From: a virus
Length of the DNA stretch: 24,455 nt
Direction: 5' to 3' (one strand)
Virus record (IMG/VR): IMGVR_UViG_3300030118_002112
Location: 1 to 24,455 of that record
Part shown: in pieces, positions 2,638 to 6,743 of the stretch
How the letters are laid out: each line of letters begins with the position of its first letter
Numbering within the stretch: position 1 is the stretch's first letter
Position numbers and translations under genes: made by a program
Notes under the pieces: model-generated
The model's input: only the letters and a program-made list of their open reading frames with translations
What the model was told of the DNA's origin: nothing
The model's database searches: none

Positions 2638-2655
2638 CTTTCTGATCCTTTCTCT
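2638..2655 (-). promoter_or_regulatory. start-site cassette copy 1 (ribosome binding site)
   Basis: AGAGAAAGGATCAGAAAG read on the minus strand, directly before the ATG at 2637; AAAGGA ends eight bases before the start. AGAAAGGA is complementary to the extreme 3' end of proteobacterial 16S rRNA. It fixes this gene's start. Confidence 0.8.
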
Positions 2656-2656
2656 T

Positions 2657-2857
2657 TTACTTTTTGCGTGATACTCGCCAGCCAATCCTTGGCACCTTGT
2701 TGATGCTTACACTGCGGTTGCCGTGATACCAGCGCACACAGTCCTTGAAGCGCAGTGCCTCTATGTCTGTGTCGAAAAGCACCGACTCACCTATTTGCAT
2801 CTTTGCTGCCAAGTCTCCAGCTTCTGTGCGCGGTCTGCCAAACGTCGTTGCCTTCAT
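2657..2857 (-). CDS. small basic phage protein of unknown function
   Basis: A 66-residue protein with a basic N-terminus (MKATTFGRPR) and a basic C-terminus (RIGWRVSRKK) around an amphipathic middle, DIEALRFKDCVRWYHGN. The charge pattern would suit nucleic-acid binding, but there is no recognisable domain. The ATG at 2857 overlaps the stop of the upstream gene (ATGA) and follows cassette copy 2. Its own stop falls just before cassette copy 1, so gene and cassette alternate without spare bases. Function unknown; I do not recognise the family. Confidence 0.7.
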   Translation of the reverse strand: MKATTFGRPRTEAGDLAAKMQIGESVLFDTDIEALRFKDCVRWYHGNRSVSINKVPRIGWRVSRKK

Positions 2858-3099
2858 GTCTCTGATCCTTTCTCTGCATCAATAATGCGGCGCACTTTCT
2901 TGGAATGTCTGTGCTTGTGCAACAAAACACGCAACGCAACACAAGCGTCCTTGTTGTCCAAATCCTCTATGAAGTTTTCAATCTTCTCAACATGCCGTCG
3001 CCGCCTATTGTTCTCTATGTACTTTTCAAGATCGGGGTTATGCGGCAGACAATAGGTTACCATGCCGTTGCCATGAATTATCTTGGTGCCTCGTCTCAT
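2854..3099 (-). CDS. small basic phage protein with cassette-encoded EKGSET tail
   Basis: An 81-residue, strongly basic protein: MRRGTKIIHGNGMVTYCLPHNPDLEKY, then an arginine-rich stretch (NNRRRRHVEK) and helices ending HKHRHSKKVRRIIDA. Such a charge pattern is compatible with DNA or RNA binding, but no domain is recognised. The last six residues, EKGSET, are encoded by the start-site cassette of the next gene, and the stop overlaps that gene's ATG. The XRE-type gene upstream (3096-3296) ends in exactly the same six residues for the same reason. The start at 3099 follows cassette copy 3. Function unknown. Confidence 0.7.
   Translation of the reverse strand: MRRGTKIIHGNGMVTYCLPHNPDLEKYIENNRRRRHVEKIENFIEDLDNKDACVALRVLLHKHRHSKKVRRIIDAEKGSET
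2858..2875 (-). promoter_or_regulatory. start-site cassette copy 2, also coding
   Basis: AGAGAAAGGATCAGAGAC before the ATG at 2857, with AAAGGA eight bases from the start. It also encodes the C-terminal residues EKGSET of the upstream gene (2854-3099), so the same bases serve as codons and as ribosome binding site. Confidence 0.8.
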
Positions 3100-3296
3100 G
3101 TTTCTGATCCTTTCTCTGCTACCAGCTTGTCATAGACGCGCTGTGACTCCAGTAAAAGTGCTACAGGTTCCGGCACTTTTCGCTTGCCGCTTTCGTAGTA
3201 ATAAACAGCGTGCAGGCTTACACCTATACGCTTTGCCATTGCACCCTGAGACAGGCCCAGGCGCTGCCTTTCAGCTTTGAATTGTTCCGCTGTCAT
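3096..3296 (-). CDS. XRE-type helix-turn-helix protein
   Basis: A 66-residue single-domain regulator. Residues 13-40 fit the XRE helix-turn-helix well: LGLSQGAMAKRIGVSLHAVYYYESGKRKVPEP, including the Q of the first helix and the ESGKR turn. After a short helix it ends in EKGSET, encoded by the downstream gene's cassette, so the tail may be non-functional filler. It is a second, unrelated-length XRE protein beside the one at 899 and lies inside the minus operon, not at its head. Its upstream sequence AGAAAGGTATAGC is a degenerate cassette, and a strong hairpin lies just beyond (3318-3353), so it may be regulated separately. Targets unknown. Confidence 0.85.
   Translation of the reverse strand: MTAEQFKAERQRLGLSQGAMAKRIGVSLHAVYYYESGKRKVPEPVALLLESQRVYDKLVAEKGSET
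3100..3117 (-). promoter_or_regulatory. start-site cassette copy 3, also coding
   Basis: AGAGAAAGGATCAGAAAC before the ATG at 3099, AAAGGA eight bases from the start. In the upstream XRE-type gene the same bases encode EKGSET. Confidence 0.8.
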
Positions 3297-3317
3297 GCTA
3301 TACCTTTCTGGCTAGTG

Positions 3318-3353
3318 AAGGCAGGGGGTTTGCTGATCCTTTCCCCCTGCCTT
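3318..3353 (-). other. 11-bp hairpin with a start-site cassette in its loop
   Basis: AAGGCAGGGGG (3318-3328) pairs perfectly with CCCCCTGCCTT (3343-3353). The 14-base loop, on the minus-strand transcript, reads AAAGGATCAGCAAA, which is the core of the cassette used elsewhere as ribosome binding site. No start codon follows it closely. It lies between the stop at 3362 and the XRE-type start at 3296. It could be an attenuator, an RNA-processing site or a remnant of a lost gene. On the plus strand it is followed by TTTTCTCTC and could act as a terminator there. Confidence 0.65.
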
Positions 3354-3361
3354 TTCTCTCT

Positions 3362-3565
3362 CTATCGCTCTACAGGCTCAATGAAAGCGAAACCAGGGCC
3401 ATTGCCTTCTGGATCGCGTGAAAGGACAACGGCGATTTCCTCGCCGTCATCTGTGCGCATGATCAGCGCAGGCCACATATCTTCGTCATGGCCGCCGTCT
3501 TGCATTTCAAAGCCGATCACCTTGCAACCTACAAGTTGCCCAAAATATTTTTTATATGCGTCCAT
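3362..3565 (-). CDS. conserved-looking small acidic phage protein
   Basis: A 67-residue acidic protein: FGQLVGCKVIGFEMQDGG, then MWPALIMRTDDGEEIAVVLSRDPEGNGPGFAF. The alternating strand pattern and the DPEGNGPG element recall small phage proteins of unknown function that I have seen described only as hypothetical; that recognition is weak. No membrane segment. The start at 3565 is fixed by cassette copy 4. The upstream membrane-protein gene stops 19 bases before this ATG, and the cassette fills that gap. Confidence 0.7.
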   Translation of the reverse strand: MDAYKKYFGQLVGCKVIGFEMQDGGHDEDMWPALIMRTDDGEEIAVVLSRDPEGNGPGFAFIEPVER

Positions 3566-3583
3566 TATTCTGATCCTTTCTCT
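3566..3583 (-). promoter_or_regulatory. start-site cassette copy 4
   Basis: AGAGAAAGGATCAGAATA immediately before the ATG at 3565; AAAGGA is eight bases from the start, the same spacing as copies 1 to 3. Confidence 0.8.
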
Positions 3584-3584
3584 G

Positions 3585-3734
3585 TTAGCCTCTGATTAGG
3601 TCTAAGGGTGTGATGCAATAAGGGTGCGACCAATCATTTACCAGTGCGCAACCTGTAGCTATATTCAGCGCTAGGAAGGCCAGCAATAGGCCAACGCTTA
3701 GGGCTGTAATGGTGCCGATGATTATCCTGATCAT
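3585..3734 (-). CDS. 49-residue single-pass membrane protein
   Basis: MIRIIIGTITALSVGLLLAF followed by LALNIATGC forms one hydrophobic segment (about residues 2-30), then a short polar tail with two cysteines. It would sit in the inner membrane. The cysteine after the hydrophobic run does not make a convincing lipobox. The ATG at 3734 overlaps the stop of the upstream gene (ATGA), with GAGGTGG as ribosome binding site inside that gene, so it lacks the cassette. A longer in-frame reading to 3884 would add an arginine-rich stretch that is antisense-like shadow of the neighbouring gene. Function unknown; a tiny holin or membrane-signalling role is possible but unsupported. Confidence 0.6.
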   Translation of the reverse strand: MIRIIIGTITALSVGLLLAFLALNIATGCALVNDWSHPYCITPLDLIRG

Positions 3735-3922
3735 GCCACCACCTCGACGACCTTGGTTTCGACCTCGTAAAGCTCGGCAAACTCTTCTGCAAAGGCCTCG
3801 GCCCCCGCCTCTATGGTGTAGCGCAATGCGTCTCCGATCTCGCTTGTGCAGCCGAATTCGTCGTCTGATTTGCAGTAGCGCCACCCGAAACCGTCATTAG
3901 CCATGATGATATATTCCGTCAT
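3731..3922 (-). CDS. small acidic phage protein of unknown function
   Basis: A 63-residue protein, MTEYIIMANDGFGWRYCKSDD at the start and an acidic helical C-terminal half (GAEAFAEEFAELYEVETK). Overall it is strongly negative, which would suit a DNA mimic or an inhibitor of a host protein, but that is speculation. The start at 3922 follows cassette copy 5; the longer reading to 4009 overlaps the upstream gene and would have to translate through the cassette. Stop and next start overlap as ATGA. I do not recognise the family. Confidence 0.7.
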   Translation of the reverse strand: MTEYIIMANDGFGWRYCKSDDEFGCTSEIGDALRYTIEAGAEAFAEEFAELYEVETKVVEVVA

Positions 3923-3940
3923 TGTTCCTGATCCTTTCTT
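3923..3940 (-). promoter_or_regulatory. start-site cassette copy 5
   Basis: AAGAAAGGATCAGGAACA before the ATG at 3922; AAAGGA is nine bases from the start. The stop codon TAA of the upstream GP88-like gene (3939-3941) overlaps the first bases of the cassette. Confidence 0.8.
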
Positions 3941-4706
3941 AGTGAGTGATAAAGACAACAGGCTTTGACGCCTGCCAGCACAGGCCACATGCGCCGCAGT
4001 CAGGCGCAAGCGTCTCCTCGCCCTTCTTGGCTAGCTTGCCGGTGGCCTTGCTAATTTGTGTCGGGCATTTGAAAGCCTGTTTATCTGTGACAAGCTGTGC
4101 CGACCTAGCGTCGTCATATGACAGCGCGGCAAACTCTTGGCTGTAAGAGCCGGAGAAGCGCACAGCAAAGCGCATGCCGCATTCATTGCGCAGGGTGAGC
4201 AAAGCCTGCCCTATGGCACGCTCTTGGCTGTCCGTCGCGTCGGGTTGGTTGGCCGTGTATCCGTACACATGCAGCGCTGGAAACATGCCAAGCCACCTTG
4301 CCCATTGCGCGACGTATGCAACGGAAAAGAAGTCGCCAAGCACATGCAGACGCACAAGAAACCCTTTCGGGTGCTTGGCCTGATAGAAAGCTAAATCATC
4401 CTCTATCTGTGCAATCAGTGCGTCATCTGCCGCATAGCGTGTGGCGTTCATCATGTTGTTCCCATAGCAATCGCCCCAATGGATGCAGGAGCGGGGACAA
4501 GTCGCGCGTTCTTCCAGTGTCACGGTAAAGATAGGAAAGCCTGCCAGCTTGCCCTTGGTCACTCGCTTGCCTAGCTTGGTGTTGGTGCTTTTCTTCACCA
4601 CCCTTTCGCTTGCGGCCATACCGTCGGCCACACTCTTAGCGCGTAAGTCGTGATAGACACTGCGGCCAGCTATCACGGCCATTTCTGTTTTGGTCATCTG
4701 TTTCAT
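3939..4706 (-). CDS. GP88-like cysteine-rich phage protein
   Basis: A 255-residue protein resembling the phage 'gene product 88' family. Cysteines sit at C70-x3-C74-x5-C80 (ATCPRSCIHWGDCYG), C214, and C237-x2-C240-x2-C243 (CGACGLCW), which looks like a metal or iron-sulphur site. Between them are LVRLHVLGDFFS (residues 118-128), the tryptophan pair in AQWARW and the strand VYGYTA, all typical of the family as I remember it. The function of the family is not established. It heads the minus operon and is the largest member. The ATG at 4706 follows a variant cassette; a reading extending to 4994 would include noncoding repeats and a hydrophobic shadow, so I reject it. Confidence 0.65.
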   Translation of the reverse strand: MKQMTKTEMAVIAGRSVYHDLRAKSVADGMAASERVVKKSTNTKLGKRVTKGKLAGFPIFTVTLEERATCPRSCIHWGDCYGNNMMNATRYAADDALIAQIEDDLAFYQAKHPKGFLVRLHVLGDFFSVAYVAQWARWLGMFPALHVYGYTANQPDATDSQERAIGQALLTLRNECGMRFAVRFSGSYSQEFAALSYDDARSAQLVTDKQAFKCPTQISKATGKLAKKGEETLAPDCGACGLCWQASKPVVFITH

Positions 4707-4724
4707 AGTGTTTGATCCTTTGTC
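4707..4724 (-). promoter_or_regulatory. start-site cassette copy 6 (divergent)
   Basis: AAAGGATCAAACACT before the ATG at 4706, with AAAGGA nine bases from the start. The AGAG lead-in is lost (ACAAAGG), making this the least conserved of the full cassettes. It belongs to the first gene of the operon. Confidence 0.65.
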
Positions 4725-4744
4725 ATTGCTAGTGATAAAGAACC

Positions 4745-4936: not shown

Positions 4937-4970
4937 GCAATGCAGCGACGCAATGACAGCGCTGCAATGC
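4937..4970. repeat. second GCAATGC box cluster
   Basis: GCAATGC occurs at 4937-4943 and 4964-4970, and GCAATG at 4950-4955, all in one direction, within a gene-free stretch between the divergent minus operon and the terminase genes. Surrounding bases repeat short GCA-type words (CAGCAAAGC, GCATGGCAGGC). It shares its core with the cluster at 2213-2331. Confidence 0.4.
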
Positions 4971-5467: not shown

Positions 5468-6743
5468 GATTCCTTACAAGCCAAGAGAGTTACAGGCTGA
5501 GATGCACTCCAGCGTGAAGCGTTGGAACGTGCTTGTGATGCACCGCCGCTTTGGCAAGACAGTCTGGGCAGTCAATCATCTGATAAAATATGCACTGACT
5601 TGTGAGCTACCCAGGCCACGGGTTGCTTTTATTGCGCCTACCTTTACGCAGGCGAAGCGTATTGCTTGGGATTATGTAAAGTATTATGCGTCTGTAATCC
5701 CTGGCGTAAGTTTCAATGAGACTGAACTGCGTGTAGACTTTCCGAATGGTGGCAGGCTGATGCTGTTGTCTGCCGAGAATCCAGATAGTTTGAGAGGTAT
5801 CTATCTTGATCTATGTGTATTCGATGAGTTTGGCATGCAAAATCCCAGGGTGTGGGGGGAGGTTGTACGTCCTGCCCTGTCTGATAGAGAGGGTGCGGCT
5901 GTATTTTTAGGCACCCCGGCAGGCCATAATCATTTTTTTGATCTATTGGAACAGGCCAAATCAGAGACGGCCAATGGTTCTGACCAGTGGTATCACAAGG
6001 TTGTAAAAGCGTCTGAGAGCAATCTTGTTAAGGCAGAAGAGCTTGAAGCTGCGCAAGCGCAGATGACGCCGGAACAATATGAGCAGGAGTATGAGTGTTC
6101 ATTCACTGCTGCCATTATCGGAGCCTACTATGCAAAGCTGCTGGTTGATGCCGAAGATAGTGGAAGGGTTACAAGGACTCCATATGATCCTGCTTATCCT
6201 GTGCATACCGCATGGGATTTGGGTATAAACGACAGCACAGCTATCTGGTTTGCGCAGGTCTTTCGTGGTGGTGCGGTGAATATCATCGACTACTATGAAA
6301 GCTCTGGCGTTGGTCTTGACCACTACGCAGACATTCTCAAGCAAAAAGATTATCACTATGGCGACCACCTAGCACCGCATGACATTGAGGTGCGAGAGTT
6401 GGGGTCTGGTAAAAGTCGTCTGGAGACTGCATACTCGCTAGGCATACGTTTTCGTGTTATACCGAAAATGAAAGTTGCCGATGGCATCAATGCAGCTAGG
6501 CTGCTGATACCTAAATGTTGCTTTGATAGAGACAGGTGCGCGGATGGATTGGAAATGCTCAGACAGTATCGTCAGGATTGGGACGATAAAAGAAAAGTAT
6601 TTCGCGATCATCCGAGGCATGATTACACATCTCATTGTGCGGATGCGTTTAGGTATCTGGCTGTTGGGCTGGAAAACAGGGCAAGTGTTGGACGCCCTTC
6701 ACAGCAAACTGCGCTTAGTGAATACAATCCTTTCCAGATTTAG
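5454..6743 (+). CDS. terL: terminase large subunit (packaging ATPase-nuclease)
   Basis: A 429-residue motor protein that drives DNA into the prohead and cuts it. The ATPase part has the Walker A-like HRRFGKT (residues 30-36), Walker B LCVFDEFG (D124, E125) and the coupling motif FLGTPAG (151-157). The C-terminal RNase H-like nuclease shows TAWDLGIND (D255, D260), NIIDYYE (D279, E282) and CADAFRY (D397). All key residues seem intact. I chose ATG 5454, which has GGGAAAG before it and starts just ahead of the family-typical KPRELQ; an upstream in-frame ATG at 5421 would lie deep in the small-subunit gene. In T7 the terminase genes come after the tail genes, here they come before the portal. Confidence 0.95.
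   Translation: MQQVKIPYKPRELQAEMHSSVKRWNVLVMHRRFGKTVWAVNHLIKYALTCELPRPRVAFIAPTFTQAKRIAWDYVKYYASVIPGVSFNETELRVDFPNGGRLMLLSAENPDSLRGIYLDLCVFDEFGMQNPRVWGEVVRPALSDREGAAVFLGTPAGHNHFFDLLEQAKSETANGSDQWYHKVVKASESNLVKAEELEAAQAQMTPEQYEQEYECSFTAAIIGAYYAKLLVDAEDSGRVTRTPYDPAYPVHTAWDLGINDSTAIWFAQVFRGGAVNIIDYYESSGVGLDHYADILKQKDYHYGDHLAPHDIEVRELGSGKSRLETAYSLGIRFRVIPKMKVADGINAARLLIPKCCFDRDRCADGLEMLRQYRQDWDDKRKVFRDHPRHDYTSHCADAFRYLAVGLENRASVGRPSQQTALSEYNPFQI

Follow-up and report, generated by a model that had tools for sequence, protein, structure and literature searches.

The window, by which is meant the whole stretch of DNA analysed, is an uncultivated virus record of 24,455 bases, and its minus strand carries a leftward operon of small genes. 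The first of these is a GP88-family gene encoding 255 aa (3939–4706), preceded by a short start-site cassette of the form ACAAAGGATCAA. It is followed by a small gene with a cassette (3731–3922), a small gene without one, the start of which overlaps the preceding stop as ATGA (3585–3734), and a further small gene with a cassette (3362–3565). A Cro-like helix-turn-helix (HTH) regulator gene of 66 aa with a structured leader (3096–3296) comes next, and the operon ends with three cassette-bearing genes at 2854–3099, 2657–2857 and 2392–2637. Judging from its position and content, the operon is probably expressed early, and the HTH gene is present in the operon of nearly all relatives. The genes behind the cassettes had been described in the initial annotation as unrelated, and the seven genes considered do represent seven different families, which excludes recent gene duplication, and with it common descent, as the source of the repeats.

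Several other features lie around the operon. A Mom-like DNA modification protein is encoded at 1643–2122 on the plus strand (PF25680, E 7e-7; phrog_1384, E 6e-38), adjoined by a RusA/PDDEXK-like nuclease gene (1253–1639). Clusters of GCATTGC/GCAATGC at 2214–2331 and 4937–4970 flank the operon, and similar clusters are found beside it in genomes G001, G002, G004, G005, G006 and G010; these are possibly protein-binding or origin repeats. A match to the alphaproteobacterial suhB/mmgR small RNA family (RF00519) at 2329–2394 on the plus strand scored 29.5 bits (E 0.0037), below the family cut-off of 41. It covers a hairpin that resembles a terminator, where the minus operon ends, and TTTCCTCCCTAA is also found in G001 only.

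In the whole window, the sequence AGAAAGGATCAG occurs in five exact copies where none is expected (shuffled sequence: mean 0.00, maximum 0), on the minus strand only and only before starts. The copies lie at 2642–2653 before the start at 2637, at 2862–2873 before 2857 within the end of the preceding gene, at 3104–3115 before 3099 within the end of the HTH gene, at 3570–3581 before 3565, and at 3928–3939 before 3922. The variant ACAAAGGATCAA at 4712–4723 precedes the start of the GP88-like gene at 4706. The near-identical cassettes initially reported at six starts are thus five exact copies and one variant, and the reported spacing also holds at all six, AAAGGA standing 8 nt from the ATG at starts 2637, 2857, 3099 and 3565 and 9 nt at 3922 and 4706. 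When three mismatches were allowed, no enrichment of the cassette pattern was seen (28 found, 21 expected), and the signal therefore resides in the near-exact copies. The motif search of the genome and its relatives that had been proposed with the annotation returned copies before starts and on one strand, with one extra copy, GGAAAGGATCAG at 3333–3344, in a hairpin loop away from any start. The start at 3296 (CCAGAAAGGTATAGC) had been regarded as a degenerate cassette; it is not clearly a decayed cassette, and in relatives the leader of the HTH gene is of a kind of its own. The cassettes at 3099 and 2857 overlap the end of the preceding ORF, where they encode ...AEKGSET, but protein coding has no explanatory power because the cassettes are intergenic at most starts. 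A role as a GATC methylation site was also rejected, since the window shows no enrichment of GATC, with 82 sites against 95 expected.

The portal protein and terminase share at best 58% and 51% identity, respectively, with those of HTVC010P-type pelagiphages. The GP88-like gene has relatives with 67–69% identity in two Roseobacter phages, so the host of the window phage is likely a marine alphaproteobacterium. Of the loci retrieved from IMG/VR that have AAAGGATCA three or more times on one strand, all but locus L231 belong to this phage group; the cassette-bearing phages are a group of uncultured marine phages. Among cultured HTVC010P-type pelagiphages, no cassette was found at the listed starts of HTVC010P and Greip. 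Membership of the group in the CRP-810-type roseophages is unlikely, as the relatives found here are 32–37 kb in length and near-complete CRP-810-type genomes are 52–68 kb (PMC11288001).

Gene calls were made independently for 11 genomes of the phage group. Among starts with AAGGA in position, the next bases are TCA at 46 of 76 on the minus strand and at 0 of 41 on the plus strand (p = 2e-12), and the 46 genes fall into 34 protein families. The consensus in the phage group is AGAAAGGATCA(A/G). In 12 early operons anchored on AAGG alone, the positions T, C, A and A/G outside the 16S-pairing part carry 0.8 to 1.25 bits each, compared with 0.02 to 0.37 bits at the same positions of plus-strand genes. 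The part without 16S pairing is thus nearly as conserved as the pairing part, as had been proposed for the window. Free variation of the TCAGA part around a retained AAGGA, which the initial annotation had named as the mark of a mere ribosome binding site, was not the pattern in the relatives, where TCA is kept at about 1 bit per position. Each cassette genome has 5–8 copies of AAAGGATCA, and each of 14 genomes has the cassette in one orientation only; it occurs at 0 of 343 plus genes and at 44 of 92 early genes, hence not at every one. The two start cassettes that were folded showed no strong structure, and a GGATCA-centred stem of at least 6 bp was found in only 9 of 281 start-type contexts. 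An element, ACTAGCAA, is also seen upstream of many starts.

The 5′ half of the cassette, AGAAAGGA, is a Shine-Dalgarno element of the ordinary kind, placed in normal register. It is the complement of UCCUUUCU, and the predicted pairing with a 16S rRNA tail of this kind is borne out by the 16S-type end TGGATCACCTCCTTTCT found in two of three Rhodobacterales genomes searched, from which the actual host may differ. The cassette had been thought to pair further out than the usual GGAGG. By base pairing, however, AGAAAGGA followed by 8 nt would occupy the same register as GGAGG followed by 6 nt, so the Shine-Dalgarno element is not displaced. The plus-strand structural genes in the window have mostly AGGAG-type or weaker sites. 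The 5′ end of 16S rRNA is UUUGAUCC; pairing of GGAUCA with this end was set aside because the segment is buried in the 30S subunit.

Nearly all of the relatives examined have a stem-loop in the HTH leader. In the window this stem-loop occupies 3318–3353 on the minus strand, with an 11-bp stem (AAGGCAGGGGG/CCCCCTGCCTT), a 14-nt loop (AAAGGATCAGCAAA, 3329–3342) that holds the extra cassette copy, and a folding z of −3.45; about 21 nt separate its end from the start codon. A CACTAGC element lies 3′ of the hairpin (3311–3317, minus strand) and also upstream of the first cassette (4728–4734 region) and in sister lineages. An Rfam search with the hairpin matched no known RNA family. Homologous hairpins occur in relatives of the window phage, and across the cassette phages the leader of this one gene displays GGATCA in a loop closed by stems of at least three unrelated kinds: type A stems are AAGGCAGGGGG, ATGGCGGGGG or CGGCGGGGG, the type B stem is TGACTGGT, and type C stems are CATAGGC, CATGGGT, CACGGGT, CATGGGC, CATGGCT or CAGGGC. 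In the type C alignment (12 distinct leaders), 96.1% of cells are paired and seven pairs are changed on both sides, four of them in the GGATCA hairpin. The covariation score is 0.306, against a mean of 0.147 for shuffles, of which 0 of 500 reached it, and at most 0.135 for slid versions; the misplacement of locus L088 by one gap in alignment A2 loses pairs and adds none. The type C loop GGATCAAG is invariant and lacks AAAGGA, so a Shine-Dalgarno role cannot explain its retention. As the main evidence on this point, the type C hairpins suggest that a reader distinct from the 16S rRNA tail recognises the word in RNA.

Further hairpins were observed in these leaders and operons. In loci L144, L219, L230, L235, L238, L264, L268, L269, L088, L181, L182 and L183, the GGATCAAG hairpin is preceded by a second covarying hairpin, which has a conserved GTTGGAT loop and, at the base, AGAAAGGG. 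L104 has, within a single early operon on the minus strand, two different hairpins located near 5496 and 8060 (AAGCATTGG..CCAATGCTT and GGGTTGTG..CACAACCC), and both have GCATCA in their loops.

The base after ATCA tracks lineage alike in loops and at starts. Type A phages have ATCAG in the loop, with 53 ATCAG and 34 ATCAA starts, and types B and C have ATCAA in the loop, with 83 ATCAA and 8 ATCAG starts; these counts come from related phages and are hence not independent. In a third, sister lineage (L114, L097 and L277), another word, GAATTGGC, is found in loop and starts alike: the loop is GAATTGGCTAA, and AAGGAATTGGCAC(A/G)ATG is found at only one or two starts per genome. Since the lineages are related, the agreement between loop and start words rests on few independent changes. 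In another sister lineage some starts read ACTAGCAAAAGGAATCAA, and the hairpin, with its short loop AUUGC, lacks the start word. The persistence of the hairpin without the start word in sister lineages implies that it has another function as well. At the same position, the early operons of G011–G015 have other start words (ACTAGCAAAAGGAATCAA, ACTAGCAA..GAGAGAGGGCAAA).

On balance, the cassette probably combines a ribosome site with an RNA operator for a putative factor acting in trans, which is most likely a phage or host RNA-binding protein. Its 5′ half would serve as the Shine-Dalgarno element and its 3′ half, GGATCA plus A/G, as the operator, through which the factor would act on translation of the leftward small-gene operon as a set. 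Bound to GGAUCA(A/G) in the mRNA, the factor could compete with or help the ribosome at early starts, repression and activation being indistinguishable from sequence. The same core in the HTH leader loop would be a second, structured binding site, which may couple the regulator gene to the same factor by feedback, sensing or titration. We infer the binding, the protein nature of the factor and the control of translation from these comparisons. It is a reasonable possibility, if short of a probable one, that this is a novel type of translational regulon in which a single factor reads the word both single-stranded at starts and in the hairpin loop, and that lineages switched both jointly as recognition and site co-evolved. 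A Pfam search of the operon proteins found no RNA-binding family, and inspection by eye of the conserved families of the phage group gave no obvious candidate reader. A phage RNA fully complementary to AAAGGATCA was also sought, and the opposite strand of the cassette genomes has 0 copies of such a complement, which favours a protein over an RNA reader. The initial annotation had raised the idea of a second reader, in the form of a protein, a small RNA or a recombination system; the covarying hairpins lend this idea indirect support, specifically at the RNA level.

The foremost alternative is that the cassette is only a strong ribosome binding site, in which TCA(R) is a spacer inherited by copying and has no separate function. 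The match of AGAAAGGA to the 16S tail and its normal spacing agree with this, and TCAR avoids further pairing and structure, as a neutral spacer could. Such a spacer is nevertheless unlikely, given that, across 34 unrelated families, TCAR almost equals the pairing part in conservation, and that hairpin loops lacking the Shine-Dalgarno part retain GGATCAAG even as their stems change. Nor is the cassette a host-wide habit of ribosome-site usage, an explanation that was rejected on its rare and scattered occurrence in 101 genomes of the order of Roseivivax, in which AAAGGATCA stands before ATG about 0–13 times per 3–5 Mb (permuted word, 0–6).

Cassettes could also be recombination linkers, that is, short homologies for the exchange of early-gene modules that are kept by this traffic. 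In comparisons between 40 operons, the ends of homologous blocks were no more than 20 nt from a cassette in 183 of 625 cases (56 expected) and 281 of 569 cases (51 expected), three to five times the chance level, and the same upstream flank is seen ahead of different downstream genes. However, cassettes coincide with gene borders, at which breaks in phage mosaics occur in any case, and a linker leaves unexplained both the fixed distance to the ATG and the display of the word in the loops of covarying hairpins. As a full explanation it ranks behind the spacer and is improbable; as a process it can coexist with reading of the cassette by the ribosome and a second factor.

Least probable of the three is a second reader other than an RNA-binding protein, either a small RNA or a protein that binds DNA at a stoperator-like HTH repressor site. 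The one-sided orientation and repetition of the sites resemble stoperators (compared in PMC3203893), an HTH gene is at hand in nearly all relatives, and the weak suhB/mmgR-like match lies at the operon end. Against this, compensatory stem changes point to RNA and not DNA, a DNA reader would not account for sites at a fixed distance to the ATG, and a small RNA is disfavoured by the missing full complement of AAAGGATCA. In L5 stoperators, a repressor bound to DNA blocks transcription; the covarying stems and fixed ATG spacing found here would speak for RNA instead.

As a kind, the cassette is a start-associated sequence (SAS). SASs were first described in cluster K mycobacteriophages (PMC3203893), and the likeness drawn to them in the initial annotation, in another phage and host group, is confirmed: the cassettes are short repeats, almost identical in sequence, that lie no more than a few nt from start codons, in one orientation, before non-structural genes only, in 34 gene families and with conservation past the 16S-pairing part. 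Those of cluster K are likewise short, near-identical repeats in ribosome-binding-site position, in one orientation, before non-structural genes of unrelated families, conserved beyond rRNA pairing and with variants between subgroups (PMC3203893). The cassette is not the cluster K element itself, however. The cluster K consensus GGGATAGGAGCCC was not found as a consensus here, and the host group differs. About half of cluster K SASs have upstream 17-bp inverted repeats termed ESAS (PMC3203893). RNA pairing is not supported by these repeats, which have been interpreted as promoters or as sites for a protein (PMC3203893, PMC11373665). No such element is apparent here, as judged from the GGATCA-centred stems at starts (9/281); instead, at one gene, the word is presented in the loop of an RNA hairpin whose stem covaries. 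The initial annotation had compared the cassette with the SASs of cluster K alone, but SAS-like repeats are also described in Microbacterium cluster EF phages (GGGAAAGGACCCC; PMC7302621) and in Citrobacter phage Mordin (PMC4611695). These too are conserved repeats at or upstream of several small-gene starts; their sequences differ, and the portions of the two reports available mention no word-bearing hairpin loop. The role of SASs is not established for cluster K, EF or Mordin (PMC11373665, PMC12699233).

Phage precedents exist for each half of the proposed reading. T4 RegA is one protein that reads many start regions, in about 30 mRNAs, and the T4/RB69 gp43 operator is a hairpin upstream of the ribosome binding site that has a conserved loop and regulates one gene (PMC3014915). 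Unlike the cassettes, RegA sites lack clear sequence conservation or structure (PMC3014915), and in contrast to both systems, one word here serves linear start sites and a hairpin loop. No Pfam match to a RegA-like protein was obtained among the ten proteins scanned from the window, which is incomplete, the other families being inspected by eye, and no gp43-type reader was found in the phages studied here. Within the literature searched, the phage group, the word-bearing RNA hairpin and the joint change of loop and start words are new.

What reads start-associated sequences is a question that has stood since 2011. In the phages described here, the non-pairing part of such a sequence is apparently read as RNA, as suggested by its display in the loops of covarying stems and by the joint change of loop and start words. 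The system lends itself to a clear reporter design and provides a short RNA bait; one prediction is a common factor that would act on many small early genes of marine phages.
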